Assembly: GCA_937863415.1 (NCBI GenBank)
Contig: CALMFC010000014.1
Coordinates: forward strand, 124,001 to 188,000
Origin: an uncultured bacterium
Lineage (GTDB): Bacteria; Patescibacteriota; Saccharimonadia; Saccharimonadales; Saccharimonadaceae
Length of the DNA stretch: 64,000 nt
Direction of reading: 5' to 3'
Below are positions 27,128 through 39,026 of the stretch, piece by piece. The stretch's first letter is position 1. Each line of letters opens with the position of its first letter. The notes beneath the pieces are model-generated. The model was not told the DNA's origin and ran no database searches. It worked only from the letters and a program-made list of their open reading frames with translations. The position numbers and the translations under genes are program-made.

Positions 27128-29779
27128 TTAGGGAAGTGGCGTATAGGCTGGCATAGTGCCGGTTGCGACGTCTACGTAATAGCCTGTATCAGTAGCGGTA
27201 ACTGTTATAGGTTGAGTTGAAGTTGCACTAGCAGGTACCGAGTATACATAAGAATAGTTACCGTCTTTGGTGAGTGTTTTAACCAAACTGCCACCAACTT
27301 TAATTTCAACACTACTTATCTTAAATGGAGATCCGTTAGTGACAGAGCCGCTAATTGTATAGTCGTTAGGACTACCTATCACTGGTGTAACAGTTACTGA
27401 CCCTGCATTTGGACCTGTGTCACTACAGCTGTGTGCGTCGTCTTCCTTGGTGGCGTCATAGCCTGCAGGTGCAGTATAGATGTCCTTTTTGGTAACAGGG
27501 TCAACCATTTTAGTGACATCCATTTCAATCTTGGCTCCGTCCGGCGTACAGTCGGTTGCTTTCTTTTTTGAAACTTTATCAAATGTTAATTTATCTGTTG
27601 TCTTACCTTGGTTCTTGTTCCACCAAGAAGGATAAAGTTCTCCGCCTATTCGTTGGATTCCGGCTGGTTGAGTGAACCAATCGCCCGATTTCCATTTACC
27701 TTCTTTGGCATAAACCTCTTTGTGAGCGTACTCCATGACTGTCTTGATGATTGGACCAGGTAGGGTTGAGTTACCGTTTTTGAGTATCGTGGCATCCGAG
27801 TTACCGAGCCAAACGCCCATGGTTAAAGCTGGGCTATAGCTCATCATCCAAATGTCTTTGGCATTTCCATCTTTATCTGACGTACCGGTCTTGGTGGCAG
27901 TTTTGACGCCAGGGATATTCATTGCAGGAGTATTAGCTAGGCCAGCACGAGCAACAGGATCAGTTAAAATATCCGATACAATGTAGGCAGATTGAGGATC
28001 AATAACTCGTACACCGGCTGGATCAGTCCATTTTTGTAAGCCCTCACCAGAACTATTTTTGACTTCCAAGATTGAAGATTGAGGTTTATAAACGCCCATT
28101 CGAGCAATTGAGGCGTATCCGTTAACTAAGTCGACTTGTTTGATTCCACAGCCACCGATGGCAGATGCTAATCCTGCATTAACCTCGTTACCCTGAGTAC
28201 AATAACTGGTTCCACCCATCGCACGAATTTCTTTTAGGGTCGGTTGAATGCCAGAAATGTACATTGCTTTTACGGCTGGGATATTACGTGAAGTCGCTAG
28301 GCTTATCCTAATCGGAATATCGCCCTTAAACTTGTGATCGGCATTTTGTAATTTTGCTCCGTAAATTGCATCAATCGGTTCATCTTTTAGGATTGAGCCA
28401 CTACCGTAGTTGGCTTGACCGTCAGGCTTCTTTTGGAATAATTCTGTATAAACTAGGGCCTTGATAGTTGATCCAGGTTGAATATAGGCAGTTGCGGCAT
28501 TATCTTGACCAAAACCAGGATACTCGAAGTCGCGACTACCTACCATGGCTACAATTTGGCCAGTTTGACTATCCTCGACAGTGGCTGCACCATTACTAAA
28601 GCCTGCCCAGGCAGGCACATAAGAACTAAACATTGTGTCCATCGCTTCTTGTAACTTATCTTGAATTCGAATATCAAGTGTTGTCTTGACTGTTAAACCA
28701 CCTTTACCAACCGTCGCTTTACCTAGTTCTTTTTCTAACTCGGTGCGTACCATTTGTACGAAATGAGGCGCCTTGATGTTTTTGTATTGGCTTTGTTCAG
28801 GTAGTAGATGGTCAATAATTGGGTACGCTTTGGCCTCGTCAGCTTGCTTCTTAGTTATGTAACCCTGATCACGCATATTATCTATTACAGTGTGCTGACG
28901 AGCTATTAGAGCTTCGTGACCGGCAACGTTATATGGGTCATAAACAGATGGGTTTTGTGGTATTGCAGCCAGTAAGGCGGCTTCGGCGATATTTAGATCT
29001 TTGGCGGACTTACCAAAGTACGTTTGAGCCCCAGATTCAGCTCCGTTACGCCGACCACCATAGGGTGATTCGTTGAGGTATAGAGTTAGAATCTGATCCT
29101 TGTCGTACATACGCTCAACTTCAATCGACAGAATCAGCTCTTTGATTTTGCGTGGTATACCACCAAGGCTTCGGTTGCTGGATTGATCAGAAAAAAAGAC
29201 TTGTTTAACGAGTTGTTGGGTTAGGGTAGATCCACCTTGTGTATCACCACCTGTTAAGTTATTGAACACAGCTCTAATTAACCCAGACGGGCTAATGCCT
29301 CCGTGAACATAAAAGTCTTTATCTTCGATTGCAACGGTTGCTTCTTTGAGATAGTTACTGAGGTCTTTACTGTCGACAACTAGTTTGTAGTTGCCGTCAC
29401 CCTTATCTTCCCAGAGGACATTGCCGTTACGGTCCAAGTATGTCGTAACTGTGGTTTGCACGCGTTTGGCAATTTCGCCAGGTCGAATTGAATCAAGGTC
29501 CTTACGAAAGTATGCGAACAATCCACCAATCAGAAGTGCCATCAATAGGATTGTGACGCCAGCTATCTTGAGCGCCATTATTGCACCACGTTTACTAAAC
29601 CAGAAAGCTGCTAGTCGTTTAGGGTGCATGCGGTAAAAGAATCGTTTGACTGGGTTTTTAGGTAGCGTTGCTAAATAACGGGCACGTTTACGTGCATCGG
29701 CGTCCTTTTTAGCTTTTCTGGTTCGAGCTAGGTTTGAATAAACGTTAAGTTTACGCGAAGGTGATGGTTTTTTAGCCAC
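27128..29779 (-). CDS. Class A penicillin-binding protein (PBP1A-like)
   Basis: A bifunctional peptidoglycan synthase. A basic cytosolic tail (1-65) and one membrane helix (~66-90) precede the glycosyltransferase family 51 domain, with catalytic Glu in EDKDFYVHGG near 151 and GGSTLTQQLVKQ. The transpeptidase shows SxxK in QPGSTIKALVY near 435, SRN in TSRNIPAVK, and KTGTS near 632. A C-terminal Ig-like domain (~790-883) follows. The start is GTG at 29779; no Shine-Dalgarno is seen, and a 12-codon reading frame beginning at 29807 overlaps this start. It converges on the PIN-TRAM gene with 2 bp between stops. Confidence 0.93.
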   Translation of the reverse strand: MAKKPSPSRKLNVYSNLARTRKAKKDADARKRARYLATLPKNPVKRFFYRMHPKRLAAFWFSKRGAIMALKIAGVTILLMALLIGGLFAYFRKDLDSIRPGEIAKRVQTTVTTYLDRNGNVLWEDKGDGNYKLVVDSKDLSNYLKEATVAIEDKDFYVHGGISPSGLIRAVFNNLTGGDTQGGSTLTQQLVKQVFFSDQSSNRSLGGIPRKIKELILSIEVERMYDKDQILTLYLNESPYGGRRNGAESGAQTYFGKSAKDLNIAEAALLAAIPQNPSVYDPYNVAGHEALIARQHTVIDNMRDQGYITKKQADEAKAYPIIDHLLPEQSQYKNIKAPHFVQMVRTELEKELGKATVGKGGLTVKTTLDIRIQDKLQEAMDTMFSSYVPAWAGFSNGAATVEDSQTGQIVAMVGSRDFEYPGFGQDNAATAYIQPGSTIKALVYTELFQKKPDGQANYGSGSILKDEPIDAIYGAKLQNADHKFKGDIPIRISLATSRNIPAVKAMYISGIQPTLKEIRAMGGTSYCTQGNEVNAGLASAIGGCGIKQVDLVNGYASIARMGVYKPQSSILEVKNSSGEGLQKWTDPAGVRVIDPQSAYIVSDILTDPVARAGLANTPAMNIPGVKTATKTGTSDKDGNAKDIWMMSYSPALTMGVWLGNSDATILKNGNSTLPGPIIKTVMEYAHKEVYAKEGKWKSGDWFTQPAGIQRIGGELYPSWWNKNQGKTTDKLTFDKVSKKKATDCTPDGAKIEMDVTKMVDPVTKKDIYTAPAGYDATKEDDAHSCSDTGPNAGSVTVTPVIGSPNDYTISGSVTNGSPFKISSVEIKVGGSLVKTLTKDGNYSYVYSVPASATSTQPITVTATDTGYYVDVATGTMPAYTPLP

Positions 29780-35074: not shown

Positions 35075-35836
35075 TTAATTAACTTTTAGCCAATTAGCTT
35101 TTTGTATTTTGTCCTGTATGAGTTCAACGAAGCTGCTAACAAAAGAAGACTGGTATTTTTGAAGAAGCTCCGACTTACTAAGCGTAGTGCCTTTCAAGAG
35201 CTTTTCGTTAGCTACCGCGTCATGGTGTGATGCAACAATGTGTGCAGCGCCCTCGAAGAGTTCTTTGTTCGCATCGATTACTGACTCGACATCCGTAGAG
35301 TGTTGAGTCTGTAGCGCAAGTGCCATTGCCGCAAAGTAATCATTACCAAATTTATCTAACCACATCTGCATACTGCCTGGACCAACTAAATTATCACCTT
35401 TAAGTAAATCTCGTTCATAAAAATCGGCACCTGGATTGTATATAGGGTACATTCTAATAATATCTGCAATGATATGTGGGTTACTCATTTTTGCAATTGT
35501 CATCTGTACATAAAATGAGTTATCTCTTAACAGTGGCTCAACAGCCAATACAATTATGCGTTTTTTAGTTTCATTGTCAGTTTCCGAGTAATTTTGTGCC
35601 AAAACATCTATTAGTTCGGCTCTCGAGAGTGAATCGGGACCGCCAATCATTGATCTAAGTTGGGTGTTGCCACCAGTTGCTGCCGTATCAAGTTTATCGG
35701 CAAATTCACCATAGTGTAGAGCGGCAAACGCTAAGTCTTTTGAGGCTAAATTTCTGAACTCACTAACAACCTGCTCTTGGGTCATTAGATTTATTTCTAT
35801 TCCAGTTGCGATGTCGTTTACACACTGCTCGTCCAT
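35075..35836 (-). CDS. Hypothetical helical protein, 253 residues
   Basis: No family recognised. It is predicted largely helical and soluble, without membrane helices (for example VLAQNYSETDNETKKRIIVL, SNPHIIADIIRMY), somewhat like a HEAT/TPR-type repeat protein, but I see no clear repeat register. I place the start at the ATG at 35836, not at an upstream TTG, because a near-consensus promoter (TTGATA, 17 nt, TATACT) lies across that upstream segment; the leader would be about 3 nt. It is followed by its smaller unknown neighbour on the same strand. Confidence 0.68.
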   Translation of the reverse strand: MDEQCVNDIATGIEINLMTQEQVVSEFRNLASKDLAFAALHYGEFADKLDTAATGGNTQLRSMIGGPDSLSRAELIDVLAQNYSETDNETKKRIIVLAVEPLLRDNSFYVQMTIAKMSNPHIIADIIRMYPIYNPGADFYERDLLKGDNLVGPGSMQMWLDKFGNDYFAAMALALQTQHSTDVESVIDANKELFEGAAHIVASHHDAVANEKLLKGTTLSKSELLQKYQSSFVSSFVELIQDKIQKANWLKVN

Positions 35837-35846
35837 ATTGCAGGGA

Positions 35847-35875
35847 AGTATAGACTTTGACGTAGGGATTATCAA
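35847..35875 (-). promoter_or_regulatory. Promoter of the 253-residue hypothetical gene
   Basis: On the minus strand TTGATA (35870-35875), 17-nt spacer, TATACT (35847-35852), ending 10 nt before the ATG. Confidence 0.75.
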
Positions 35876-35886
35876 GCATAATGATT

Positions 35887-35906
35887 TTGGTACGCGAGAG
35901 AGGACT
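35887..35906 (-). repeat. 20-bp copy of the tRNA-Leu(CAG) 3' end
   Basis: An exact direct repeat of 36069-36088, i.e. the acceptor 3' strand with CCA and part of the T arm. It sits at the far side of structured element A, about 180 bp from the intact tRNA. Confidence 0.9.
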
Positions 35907-36020
35907 CGGTCACGTTCCGCGACCCCACGAGTCAGTCAAATGAACATAGTTCATTTGTGACATCGTCTTGCGACCCGCAGACTTGCGGGTCTCACCTCAA
36001 CGCCCGGGTGGATGTTAAAG
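35902..36020 (-). ncRNA. Structured element A (unknown RNA or repeat), downstream of tRNA-Leu(CAG)
   Basis: About 119 nt, read on the minus strand. It contains an 8-bp hairpin GACCCGCA/TGCGGGTC (35972-35991), the strand GCAAGACGATGTCAC, a 9-bp hairpin CAAATGAAC/GTTCATTTG (35937-35957), and a 3' domain ACTCGTGGGGTCGCGGAACG then TGACCGAGTCC. Element B at 38261-38380 has the same order, length and end domain (25 of 31 identical) while both hairpins keep pairing with different bases. That pattern indicates a conserved RNA or DNA fold. Not assigned to any known family; direction of transcription unproven. Confidence 0.6.
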
Positions 36021-36029
36021 TCATATATA

Positions 36030-36074
36030 TACCAAGTAAATAGTCAGTCGAGAAGACTGACTATTTACTTGGTA
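36030..36074 (-). repeat. Perfect 20-bp inverted repeat that includes the tRNA-Leu(CAG) CCA end
   Basis: Arms 36030-36049 and 36055-36074 are perfect complements around a 5-nt loop. The outer 5 bp on the tRNA side are the T-ACCA end of the tRNA gene itself. It probably acts as terminator or 3'-processing signal; no T run follows on the minus strand. Confidence 0.9.
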
Positions 36075-36155
36075 CGCGAGAGAGGACTTGAACCTCCACG
36101 CCCCGAAGGGCACTAGCACCTGAAGCTAGCGCGTCTACCGTTCCGCCACTCGCGC
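36070..36155 (-). tRNA. tRNA-Leu, anticodon CAG
   Basis: An 86-nt class II tRNA on the minus strand with a long variable arm (GCCCTTCGGGGC region), acceptor GCGCGAG/CTCGCGT (first pair G-U), anticodon loop TTCAGGT, T-arm GGAGGTTCAAGTCCT, and an encoded CCA end. It reads CUG codons. The CCA end is inside a perfect inverted repeat, and partial copies of both its ends lie nearby (35887-35906 and 36213-36258). A TAATAT two bases before the 5' end is an AT-rich promoter candidate that is too close to be convincing. Confidence 0.95.
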
Positions 36156-36212
36156 ATATATTAGAAAAGTACGTTTAGTTTTTGGTCATCTCGGACATTT
36201 ACGACATGACGC

Positions 36213-36258
36213 GCGCGTCTACACATAACTTACGTTTCACGCAGGCCACTCGCGCATA
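36213..36258 (-). pseudogene. Partial tRNA-Leu 5'-end remnant
   Basis: The 14-nt tRNA 5' segment at 36145-36158 recurs exactly at 36245-36258, and a 10-nt D-arm segment (GCGCGTCTAC on the plus strand) recurs at 36213-36222. Spacing differs from the intact tRNA and the remainder does not match, so this is a degenerate copy. Confidence 0.6.
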
Positions 36259-36284
36259 AACCCCATTATATCAATAATGGGGTT
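36259..36284. terminator. Terminator after the FAD-oxidase gene
   Basis: A perfect 11-bp stem AACCCCATTAT/ATAATGGGGTT with a 4-nt loop, 3' of the minus-strand gene ending at 36336; symmetrical, so usable in both directions. Confidence 0.85.
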
Positions 36285-36340
36285 GGAATATGGAATATGG
36301 CTGTTGGAATATGGCGTAATTTTAATAGCCAATAGCTAGC
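36281..36340. repeat. GGAATAT / AATAGCC repeat element copy
   Basis: Contains TTGGAATATGG twice, GGCTGTTGGAATATGGC and AATAGCCAATAGC, in the same order as the copy at 41081-41164. Its AATAGCTA end supplies the TAG stop of the FAD-oxidase gene. Confidence 0.75.
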
Positions 36341-37979
36341 TGTGTGGTGAATACTGAGAAAATCGGGCGCGGCTGTAGTTTGAATCAAGGGCTGAAACCA
36401 ATATTTTCATTTCGTTTTTTTGTTTAACGCCCGAATTCATTGTTCCGAATGGATCGAAAGCAGACCGTATTTGTTCATATAATTGGTTAACTTCTGGATC
36501 AATATTTTCGATTGCGGCATTCGCTTTCAGGCGACCTTCACCTGATTCAGATATAAATACACCGCCATGTTTAGTGACAAGTTCTGCATATTCACTTATT
36601 AATTTGAATACCTTTTGTTTATCGCCAACTTTATTCAATTCGAGAATTGGTCTGGTTTTAATAACTCCGTCCATGTACCTAATGTATAAAGGTAATTCAA
36701 TGTGGTGCTTTTTGGCTAGGTCGGCGACCGAAACAGAGAATTCTTCGATTCTATCACTAGGAACCGATGCACCGTCAATTAATGGTGGCATTGATTCATT
36801 CTTTACTTCGGTATTTAGCACTGTTGATGCAACCTCACGTATTGTAGCTAGTTCTTCGTTTGAAAGTTTATCAGACGTAACTACATTAGCGTTTAGTTTA
36901 GCTAGGTGTTTTAGAGTATGTTTCATCTTGCGGTGTCTAGCGCCCTCGCTAAAGTCGTTGAAAGAGATATATAGAACTGCTGCAACCGAGTTGTCGGCTT
37001 TATCCTCTGAGTAAAACGGAAATATTTTACCCTTTTCGTTTGCCATGTCAAATAGTGACCCGTCAATAAGCTCAAGGGAAGTTGGTTCGTTTTTGATGAT
37101 TTTGTCGGCCGCGTCTCGGGCAGATTCCGCTGAGTCGAAAGTCGCAACAATAACTGATGTGTCACTGTTATAAAATTCAGTTTTAAATACAATTTCAGAT
37201 ATTATACCCAGTGTACCTTGGCTGCCAATAAATAATGGCGTAAGGTCAAATGAACCATCACGTTGTTTAACTTTGGCAATTCCAGAATAGCCTGCGTTAT
37301 CACGAATTTTGTCATCGATTTTATCTGTTATTAATTGCTCGTTATCTTCGATTAGGCCATCTAGTTTACGGTACAATTCGCCCTCAAGGGTTTGAAGACC
37401 TTTCTTCCTGTTAAGTTCGCGTTTGTTAATGCGACCGGTTTCGATTACATCTCCATTAGCCAGTACTACTTCTAATTTAGTAACCCAGTCGCCGGTTGAG
37501 CCTTTGGATCCCGATAATTGACCACTGTAATTATTGGCAACGCCACTACCTACAGTGCTGTATAAGTATGATTCTGGGTAAGCTGGCAGGTTTAATCCAG
37601 ATGCCCGTAGAGTATCGTTTAAAGATTTATATGTAACGCCGGGTTGAACATGTGCGATTCGTTGCTTGTCCTTTAGGGAAATAAATAAAATTTCGTTTAG
37701 ATGAGCAAGAGTATTAATAATTACACCTTTACCAATACTTGCACCTGTCTGATCCGAGCCGCCACCCCTGACCGTAATAGGCAAGACATGTCCTTTTTCG
37801 GCCAGCTGCCATGTAAACCTGGCAACTTTACGGATGTCGTTGGTGACGCGAGGTGAGACTATGAGTTCTGGCTTAATCTTTAGGATACTGCTGTCGTTAG
37901 CAAACTGCTCGCGAATAGCTTCGTCAACCGTTACTTCGCCTAAAAGATGTTCATTCAAGTATTTAGAGATTTTGCTCAT
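36336..37979 (-). CDS. FAD-linked oxidase/dehydrogenase (GlcD-like, PCMH-type FAD domain)
   Basis: A flavoenzyme of the FAD_binding_4 type, likely oxidising a 2-hydroxy acid or similar. The FAD domain covers about 40-250: ITVRGGGSDQTGASIGKGVI is the pyrophosphate loop; STVGSGVANNYSGQLSGSKG and LFIGSQGTLGIISEIVFKT follow. The C-terminal FAD-oxidase domain ends with GVFISESGEGRLKAN and FDPFGTMNSGVK. Length is 547. No iron-sulfur cysteines are visible. A GGGAGAAGG ribosome binding site and an upstream TATCAT with TG support the start. Substrate unknown; transfer into this tRNA-flanked region is possible. Confidence 0.85.
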   Translation of the reverse strand: MSKISKYLNEHLLGEVTVDEAIREQFANDSSILKIKPELIVSPRVTNDIRKVARFTWQLAEKGHVLPITVRGGGSDQTGASIGKGVIINTLAHLNEILFISLKDKQRIAHVQPGVTYKSLNDTLRASGLNLPAYPESYLYSTVGSGVANNYSGQLSGSKGSTGDWVTKLEVVLANGDVIETGRINKRELNRKKGLQTLEGELYRKLDGLIEDNEQLITDKIDDKIRDNAGYSGIAKVKQRDGSFDLTPLFIGSQGTLGIISEIVFKTEFYNSDTSVIVATFDSAESARDAADKIIKNEPTSLELIDGSLFDMANEKGKIFPFYSEDKADNSVAAVLYISFNDFSEGARHRKMKHTLKHLAKLNANVVTSDKLSNEELATIREVASTVLNTEVKNESMPPLIDGASVPSDRIEEFSVSVADLAKKHHIELPLYIRYMDGVIKTRPILELNKVGDKQKVFKLISEYAELVTKHGGVFISESGEGRLKANAAIENIDPEVNQLYEQIRSAFDPFGTMNSGVKQKNEMKILVSALDSNYSRARFSQYSPHS

Positions 37980-38033
37980 TTTAGCGATTTTCCTTCTCCC
38001 ATATATTCTGTATTAATGATAGCACAAGCGTGT

Positions 38034-38066
38034 TTGGAATATGGAATATAACTTTCGGCTATTAGA
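38034..38066. repeat. GGAATATGGAATAT / GGCTATTAGAA repeat copy
   Basis: TTTGGAATATGGAATATAAC followed by CGGCTATTAGAA, matching pieces of the repeats at 36281 and 41081. It lies between the FAD-oxidase promoter and the tRNA-Leu(TAG) promoter. Confidence 0.65.
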
Positions 38067-38093
38067 AAAGTAGCGGTAAAGAGCTGTTTTTGG

Positions 38094-38099
38094 TATAAT
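38094..38099 (+). promoter_or_regulatory. Extended -10 box of tRNA-Leu(TAG)
   Basis: TATAAT with TG one base upstream; transcript start expected ~24 nt before the mature tRNA 5' end. Confidence 0.7.
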
Positions 38100-38129
38100 A
38101 TCTCGGCTACCTGCCTAGTATATGTATAT

Positions 38130-38214
38130 GCGCGAGTGGTGGAATTGGTAGACACGCTAGCCTTAGGAGCTAGTGCCGCAAGGCGTGGAGGTTCAAGTCC
38201 TCTCTCGCGTACCA
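38130..38214 (+). tRNA. tRNA-Leu, anticodon TAG
   Basis: An 85-nt class II tRNA with acceptor GCGCGAG/CTCGCGT, anticodon loop CTTAGGA, long variable arm (TGCCGCAAGGCG), T-arm GGAGGTTCAAGTCCT and encoded CCA. It reads CUA and probably other CUN codons. Its acceptor, T arm and much of its anticodon stem match tRNA-Leu(CAG) at 36070, so the two are duplicates in opposite orientation. Its ACCA end begins the perfect palindrome that follows. Confidence 0.96.
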
Positions 38215-38255
38215 AAGTAAAATGAGACCAATTGGTCTCATTTTACTTTGGTTTT
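38211..38255 (+). terminator. Perfect 42-nt palindromic terminator starting in the tRNA CCA end
   Basis: Arms of 21 nt (38211-38231 and 38232-38252) are perfectly complementary, with no unpaired centre, followed by TTTT. The first four bases (ACCA) are the mature 3' end of the tRNA. Confidence 0.88.
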
Positions 38256-38260
38256 GAAGA

Positions 38261-38380
38261 GCCTAAACCTTACCCTAGGCGCGAAGGCGAAAACTGCCAG
38301 TGGCAGTTTGAGAGCGATGTTCCGATGACGATTAATCGTCATACGCGCAACTCGCGGGATCGCCGGAGGTGACCAAGTCC
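38261..38380 (+). ncRNA. Structured element B (unknown RNA or repeat), downstream of tRNA-Leu(TAG)
   Basis: 120 nt. Order: TAAACCTTACCCTAGGCG region, an 8-bp hairpin AAACTGCC/GGCAGTTT (38291-38309), GAGAGCGATGTTCCG, a perfect 18-nt palindromic hairpin (38325-38342), then the 3' domain ACTCGCGGGATCGCCGGAGG and TGACCAAGTCC. Each block matches element A. It lies between the tRNA palindrome and the -10 box of the methyltransferase gene, so it is outside the methyltransferase mRNA if that mRNA is leaderless. No family recognised. Confidence 0.6.
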
Positions 38381-38396
38381 TTTCGAATAAATAAAG

Positions 38397-38402
38397 TATA
38401 AT
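38397..38402 (+). promoter_or_regulatory. -10 box of the second SPOUT methyltransferase (leaderless)
   Basis: TATAAT ends 6 nt before the ATG at 38409; no ribosome binding site. Confidence 0.65.
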
Positions 38403-38408
38403 CATCGT

Positions 38409-39026
38409 ATGACTAATCTTGAAGTAGGTGTTGGTCCACACCCCAAACCTTGGCCCGATGATGAGCGTCTTGACCCTGAATTACTAGAAAACGGAGATAG
38501 GCGCAATGTAATCGACAAATACCGTTATTGGTCGAACGAAGCTATTAAGTCAGACTTAAACAACTCACGGGTTTCTCTTCACGTTGCAATAGAGAATTGG
38601 CAACACGATTTTAACATCGGTACAATTGTGCGCGCAGCTAACGCATTTAATGTTGAAAACGTACATATTATCGGTAAGCGTCATTGGAACAAACGTGGCG
38701 CGATGGTCACTGATAGGTATTTAAATATTAAACATCATAATTCGGTTCAAAAGTTTGTGGATGAAATGCGATTAGATTCTAGGACAATCACAGCAGTTGA
38801 TATTTTACCTGGCGCTAAACCAATTTCTGAATGCAAACTAGCAGAGAAAACTGTCTTAGTTTTCGGTGGCGAGGGACCTGGACTAAGCAAAGAAATGCAA
38901 CAGTCGGCCAGTCAGATTGTCATGATAGAACAATTCGGATCGACAAGGTCAGTCAATGTCGGCGTTGCTGCCGGTATAGCCATGTATATATGGGTGCAAC
39001 AAAACGTCTTGACACACCATATATAG
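38409..39026 (+). CDS. TrmH/SpoU-family RNA 2'-O-ribose methyltransferase (copy 2)
   Basis: An SAM-dependent SPOUT methyltransferase acting on tRNA or rRNA ribose. It has a ~55-residue N-terminal extension (VGPHPKPWPDDERLDPELL) before the catalytic domain. SpoU motif 1 is IENWQHDFNIGTIVRAANAF, motif 2 TVLVFGGEGPGLSKEM, motif 3 IEQFGSTRSVNVGVAAGIAM. It differs from the TrmL-like copy at 12221 in having the extension and the motif 1 wording. Its position next to tRNA-Leu is suggestive only. A perfect -35 box for the next gene overlaps its end. Confidence 0.9.
   Translation: MTNLEVGVGPHPKPWPDDERLDPELLENGDRRNVIDKYRYWSNEAIKSDLNNSRVSLHVAIENWQHDFNIGTIVRAANAFNVENVHIIGKRHWNKRGAMVTDRYLNIKHHNSVQKFVDEMRLDSRTITAVDILPGAKPISECKLAEKTVLVFGGEGPGLSKEMQQSASQIVMIEQFGSTRSVNVGVAAGIAMYIWVQQNVLTHHI

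Follow-up and report, generated by a model that had tools for sequence, protein, structure and literature searches.

Palindromes at the CCA ends of Saccharibacterial tRNA genes have the features of intrinsic terminators and often precede tRNA-linked repeat units

Why do the encoded CCA ends of two tRNA-Leu genes also form the first bases of long palindromes? The question is raised by tRNA-Leu(CAG) and tRNA-Leu(TAG) in a 64,000-nucleotide stretch of Saccharibacterial DNA (contig CALMFC010000014.1, positions 124,001 to 188,000; hereafter the window), whose features are collected in Table 1. A stem search recovered both palindromes, with the positions and dimensions given in a first-pass annotation of the sequence. 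Behind tRNA-Leu(CAG), the longest perfect stem has 20 bp and a 5-nt loop, and its outermost pairs are TACCA/TGGTA. Behind tRNA-Leu(TAG), the longest perfect stem has 21 bp, lacks a loop in the DNA, and begins at ACCA, which places ACCA within the outer pairs of both stems, as had been noted. Folded as RNA, the two palindromes reach −30.3 kcal/mol (z = −10.5) and −28.7 kcal/mol (z = −10.6), respectively, and in neither case did any of 200 shuffled sequences fold as well. Both palindromes are real and far beyond chance. The other terminator-like stems are short, in agreement with the annotation; the longest between positions 28000 and 46000 of the window has 12 pairs.

Table 1. Features of the two tRNA-Leu loci (positions in the window).
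Feature	Position	Strand	Basis or detail
tRNA-Leu(CAG) gene, CCA encoded	36070..36155	-	ARAGORN; Rfam RF00005, 51.2 bits
Leu(CAG) palindrome, predicted terminator hairpin running into CCA	36030..36074	-	arms 36055-36074 and 36030-36049, loop 36050-36054
Leu(CAG) unit, degenerate antisense copy of T-arm region	35997..36029	-	antisense alignment z 2.7
Leu(CAG) unit, P0 hairpin	36014-36021 paired with 35994-36001	-	RNA fold
Leu(CAG) unit, type A structured insert with T-stem edges, in T-loop of second tRNA copy	35902..35996	-	
Leu(CAG) unit, second sense copy of tRNA 3′ end (T-loop 3′ half to CCA)	35888..35908	-	19/22, z 11
tRNA-Leu(TAG) gene, CCA encoded	38130..38214	+	ARAGORN; RF00005, 56 bits
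Leu(TAG) palindrome, predicted terminator hairpin starting at ACCA	38211..38252	+	21 bp as DNA; 19 bp and 4-nt loop as RNA
Leu(TAG) unit, decayed antisense-arm position	38253..38285	+	antisense z −0.3, no significant match; placed by analogy with other units
Leu(TAG) unit, type A structured insert (second copy in the window)	38286..38380	+	R1
Leu(TAG) unit, remnant of second tRNA copy (CAAGTCC...), lost before acceptor strand and CCA	38373..38383	+	S2 z 2.5; sequence comparison

The 3′-flanking sequence of every tRNA gene in the window's genome (G000; 847 kb in 14 contigs) was extracted. A stem lies at or next to the CCA in 26 of 40 tRNA genes and runs into the CCA in 20 of 40. The palindromes described for the two Leu genes are therefore present but are not special to leucine. 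Among additional flanks from Saccharibacteria, 82 of 112 have a stem, as do 44 of 48 flanks of Leu genes from the same genus. In other classes of Patescibacteria, a stem is observed in 6 of 48 flanks and reaches the CCA in 2. Among the Patescibacteria sampled, the CCA-adjoining stem is thus a trait of this lineage. Taken together, 206 distinct tRNA 3′ flanks, nearly all from the same order, contain 156 stems, and 123 of these extend into the CCA. The annotation had staked its interpretation on such palindromes recurring at other tRNA genes of the genome, and they do recur.

The 156 stems comprise 2553 Watson-Crick, 127 G-U, and 17 A-C pairs. Because an A-C mismatch on this strand corresponds to a G-U pair on the opposite one, selection on the fold acts at the RNA level and on the tRNA strand, not on the DNA or on both strands. 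Stem symmetry is kept while the sequence drifts, as had been proposed, both at orthologous loci and across the 206 flanks, but this symmetry is of the RNA type. The same counts rule out a two-way terminator or DNA palindrome as the source of the symmetry, and the gene downstream of each Leu tRNA is codirectional with its tRNA. The inner 7 bp of the stems are 59% G+C, and 140 of the 156 stems have at least six T in nine positions within the 3′ arm; the transcribed strand thus carries the G+C-rich stem followed by a U-rich tract that defines an intrinsic terminator. Based on these sequence features, namely U-rich RNA hairpins directly at the CCA with strand-specific tolerance of G-U, the palindromes are predicted to be intrinsic terminators in which the U-tract is mirrored by an A-rich stretch behind the CCA. 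The suggestion that termination is coupled to the tRNA is supported by the same observations. The terminators of ordinary tRNA operons share the G+C-richer inner stem, the U-rich tract, and the RNA-strand G-U tolerance. In contrast to them, the stem here extends through the A-rich and U-rich tracts into the CCA and averages about 18 pairs.

The annotation had also raised the possibility that capture of the CCA in the precursor blocks or times tRNA 3′ processing. Pairing of the CCA in 123 of 206 flanks, almost confined to this lineage, is consistent with such a role. However, transcripts should end within the U-tract, before the UUGG partner of the CCA. The CCA partners come last in the 3′ arm, downstream of the U-tract, and terminated transcripts would lack them, so that masking of the CCA would involve read-through RNA only. 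Moreover, several related Leu genes possess a terminator with the CCA outside the stem. The outer TGGT is also the starting point of a larger antisense tRNA copy, which explains the same bases wherever that copy is present. Sequestration of the CCA is thus highly improbable as the main role of the palindromes. The termination part of the earlier interpretation is supported, CCA capture as a main role is not, and a larger structure behind the palindromes had gone unremarked.

This larger structure is a unit found downstream of about half of the tRNA genes. It comprises three parts: a copy (A) that is antisense to the tRNA 3′ region and imperfect, a tight turn (P0), and a second sense copy of the 3′ end (S2), which often has a CCA and sometimes a terminator of its own. 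An insert of roughly 80-110 nt takes the place of the S2 T-loop. Among 64 units drawn from many genomes and compared with 38 tRNA types, S2 is closest to its own tRNA in 48 and retains up to 21 of 22 nt, CCA included; the antisense copy, often degenerate, is closest to its own tRNA in 28. In 52 of the 64, the antisense arm and the second copy fold into the P0 hairpin. An rtT-like architecture is made up of these parts, an antisense copy and a second sense copy of the tRNA's own 3′ region downstream of the gene. In the window's genome, where units were scored at z > 3 for A or z > 4 for S2, many tRNAs pass, and a terminator stem is also present at 18 of the 20 tRNAs scored with a unit. The two lacking a stem are Ile(GAT), which has the second 3′ end only, and Thr(GGT), for which the unit match is probably the next tRNA gene. 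Some tRNAs below the cut-off, Leu(TAG) included, carry an insert.

Both Leu loci of the window contain an insert of type A. The Leu(CAG) unit extends from 36029 down to 35888, the end of the second CCA. Its insert includes a hairpin, GGGGTCGCGGAACGTGACC, at 35908-35926 and scores 96.1 bits (E 7e-22) against model R1, whose members include copies from the same genome. The Leu(TAG) unit, with a decayed antisense arm and a truncated second 3′ end, extends from 38253 to about 38383, and its insert, itself a model member, scores 77.2 bits (E 5e-17).

Model R1, which describes the type A insert (~95 nt), was built from seven examples of the window's genome and finds 16 copies there (E up to 0.01). 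Copies are present in 32 of the 40 genomes searched (the window's genome and relatives) and in 12 of 17 genera, and the named carriers are nearly all Saccharibacteria. A phylum-wide draw of 240 genomes, analyzed under stricter filters, yielded no copy outside the order. The insert covaries strongly: 24 of 26 pairs show changes on both sides over 112 distinct rows. Paired cells amount to 96.9%, versus 75.5% after shuffling and 30-36% when the partner is slid by one column, although the alignment was fitted to the model structure and these counts are thus biased towards it. With a fixed G-U column left out, 61 G-U pairs stand against 24 A-C pairs, an excess that points to selection of the insert as RNA of the tRNA strand. 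In Rfam 15, no family matched the insert in unit loci at the curated threshold; only tRNA and rRNA pass.

The insert lies nearly exclusively beside tRNA genes, with no preferred tRNA type. A same-strand tRNA lies within 400 nt of 97 of the 112 R1 copies. Three further copies are near an opposite-strand tRNA, in every case tRNA-Phe (loci L122, L134, and L097, from three genomes), and 12 are near none; most of those inspected have tRNA-derived flanks. In the downstream class, the insert begins 50-125 nt past the CCA (64 cases). In an upstream class, it lies within a partial 5′ copy of the tRNA that follows and replaces 2-3 nt in the T-loop, in the D-loop, or between the D-arm and the anticodon arm. 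Several genomes share the upstream copy at tRNA-Gly(GCC), and the pseudo-tRNAs before Gly, Lys, Ser, and Pro keep their anticodon in a re-formed hairpin. A type B insert (model R2, for which the alignment of unmodified sequences, A5, was preferred over the shortened-loop version, A4) is found at the equivalent position downstream of Ser(GCT), Tyr, Met, Ala, and other tRNAs, and inspection by eye revealed a third kind downstream of Trp and Glu(TTC). The insert ends, GUGAG...GUGAC inside tRNA loops, suggested a group I or group II intron. This identity was ruled out by the lack of an Rfam intron match, the very small size, and the intact tRNA copy that lies alongside in most cases.

Several related arrangements were observed. 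A broken 5′ copy of tRNA-Leu(CAG) lies upstream of that gene at window positions 36213-36255 (minus strand), with GCGCGAGTGG at 36246-36255, GTAGACGCGC at 36213-36222, and an insertion in the D-loop region. It resembles the upstream class of relatives but has a different insert. tRNA copies interrupted by a type A insert are directly followed by an intact tRNA of matching type at L083:1300-1640 (G030), L046:1440-1640 (the window's genome), and L077:1430-1620 (G029); among these, one tRNA-Leu(TAG) copy is interrupted twice. At L084:1460-1640 (G026), a tRNA-Gln-like gene with a CTA anticodon, a good acceptor stem, and a CCA has a type A insert in its T-loop and no intact tRNA in its vicinity; removal of the insert by splicing would turn it into an amber suppressor. 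Two further loci belong to the window's genome. Between tRNA-Ala and tRNA-Ile beside the rRNA (L006:1250-1490), a broken tRNA-Ile copy with a palindromic D-loop insertion (ACCGTATCATTCGATACGG...) is followed by the intact tRNA-Ile(GAT). On contig 10 (L040:644-714), a second tRNA-Ala(TGC) call of 30.8 bits, with no encoded CCA and a long hairpin behind it, is possibly a pseudogene or a mobile-element tRNA.

To our knowledge, this layout is otherwise known from a single E. coli locus, tyrT, whose repeats have long been a one-locus curiosity with a little-understood RNA. As in the Saccharibacterial units, the 178-bp repeats of E. coli tyrT/tyrV combine an antisense T-arm copy (z about 6) with a turn and an S2 that has a CCA (z 10-11) and a hairpin-rich insert in its T-loop; tandem units occur. 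The annotated rttR (RtT RNA) ends at the second CCA. In contrast to the present system, in which about half of the tRNA genes carry units, each behind a terminator and with other inserts, the E. coli repeats follow one tRNA only and have no terminator hairpin directly at the CCA. As a positive control, the RtT covariance model RF00391 recovered four copies in E. coli at 133-138 bits; it gave no match up to an E value of 10 in window positions 35800-38500 or in 12 unit loci, and R1 and R2 gave none in E. coli. A motif, GAGGAGCGAAGYGA, seen by eye in both type B and E. coli rtT suggested homology that model R2 did not support. By sequence comparison, then, the units are laid out like E. coli rtT and are not detectable homologues of it; by analogy, they may work like it.

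This layout also recurs behind tRNA-Leu(CAG) of Herbaspirillum and Herminiimonas, where a CCA-abutting terminator, an antisense stretch (GGGACTCGAA), and a second CCA end are present, and the third hairpin, GGGGTCGCGGAACGTGACC, is identical to that of the Saccharibacterial insert. Other hairpins replace P1/P2, the R1 score is weak (about 30 bits), the antisense match is not significant (z 2.0), and the arrangement is seen at one tRNA only. In Herbaspirillum rhizosphaerae (L096, 6430-7260), tRNA-Leu(CAG) and its whole unit occur twice, about 560 bp apart, and the two units are near-identical. Small mobile hairpin inserts in the loops of structured RNA genes are also known as Rickettsia palindromic elements and mitochondrial double-hairpin elements. 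These resemble the present units in that respect, but they strike many kinds of gene, whereas nearly every copy here is tRNA-adjacent and lies in tRNA-derived sequence. No description of the units emerged from a literature search that covered rtT, tRNA-linked repeats, and RNAs of Saccharibacteria.

The units turn over fast. Within one genus, R1 copy number ranges from 0 to 23 per genome, and the orthologous Leu(CAG) and Leu(TAG) loci of relatives vary between a type A insert, a type B insert, a terminator with an antisense stub, and a terminator only. Two such loci, L193 and L194, share the terminator and antisense arm with about 3 differences in 65 nt (by eye) and differ in their inserts, one of type A and the other of type B; inserts are thus exchanged as modules within a near-identical scaffold. 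Units are lost without loss of the tRNA, and many decayed stubs are found. A reverse transcriptase was considered as the mobility enzyme and rejected: PF00078 is absent from the window's genome, where R1 occurs 16 times, and G003, G016, and G030 are among the other carriers that lack it; no enzyme behind the spread of the units was identified. The inserts had no match in viral contigs, phages, or plasmids that would indicate a phage- or plasmid-borne origin.

The decayed stubs, together with the sense-antisense-sense order, the turns at hairpins, and the resemblance of the copies to the adjacent tRNA rather than to a fixed sequence, would fit a by-product of repair or replication. Here, fold-back synthesis at the terminator hairpin would yield first a reverse and then a forward copy of the tRNA 3′ end, leaving pieces that decay and have neither function nor mobility. 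However, the insert is one conserved, order-wide family with RNA-type covariation, modules are swapped within an unchanged scaffold, and the layout is shared by Herbaspirillum and E. coli, and we regard this origin as quite improbable. The main rival is that the units are regulatory RNAs, in which the second CCA end and T-arm (downstream class) or the D-arm and anticodon hairpin (upstream class) mimic a tRNA as ligands of a synthetase, a modification enzyme, or a processing nuclease, so that the tRNA operon receives feedback from the level of enzyme or tRNA. It would account for the RNA-strand covariation of the insert, the close retention of the own tRNA 3′ end with its CCA in S2, the anticodon hairpins of the upstream pseudo-tRNAs and the recurrence of the Gly(GCC) one, and the annotation of E. 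coli rttR as a small RNA that ends at the second CCA. The patchy distribution within one genus, the interchangeable inserts at one locus, the many stubs, the loss of units without loss of the tRNA, and the lack of a preferred tRNA type speak against it, and on balance it appears rather unlikely.

The explanation that we favor, with modest confidence, is that the palindromes are terminators and, in most cases, the first part of tRNA-linked, hitchhiking, semi-selfish repeat units. Each palindrome would be a terminator so near the tRNA that the mirror of its A-rich and U-rich tracts runs into the CCA. Behind it follow, in most cases, the antisense copy, the turn P0, and S2 with its CCA, the last carrying an RNA module in its T-loop. 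On read-through, the unit could form a self-contained folded RNA with a CCA end, as in E. coli rtT. S2 and the insert may hold the antisense arm away from the tRNA, which would explain why the units are tolerated. By hitchhiking on strongly transcribed tRNA genes, the semi-selfish repeats would spread mainly by recombination between tRNA loci, with the common tRNA 3′ end as homology, and any regulatory use would be secondary. Transcription of the units may be a rare event, given the terminator in front of each; nevertheless, conservation of the fold is of the RNA type. Order-wide covariation this strong could equally reflect a host function, which weighs against the semi-selfish explanation. 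The degenerate state of many antisense copies and the failure to identify a mobility enzyme also count against the favored reading.

We read the units as an order-wide, mobile, previously undescribed variant of rtT-like tRNA-linked repeats. A broader proposal, which we advance only tentatively, is that they are order-wide RNA modules that sit in the loops of partial tRNA copies, have a spreading mechanism of their own, and yield CCA-ended, tRNA-mimicking RNAs, with the E. coli tyrT repeat as one relative within a broad tRNA-parasitic class. Together, the units and terminators would account for the CCA-reaching palindromes, and a strongly covarying RNA family that is absent from Rfam is added. 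For annotation, partial tRNA copies in the tRNA flanks of these genomes can mislead. If this layout adjoins about half of the tRNA genes in a reduced genome and recurs across the order and in some Betaproteobacteria, tRNA-linked repeats would become a class open to comparison, modeling, and testing.
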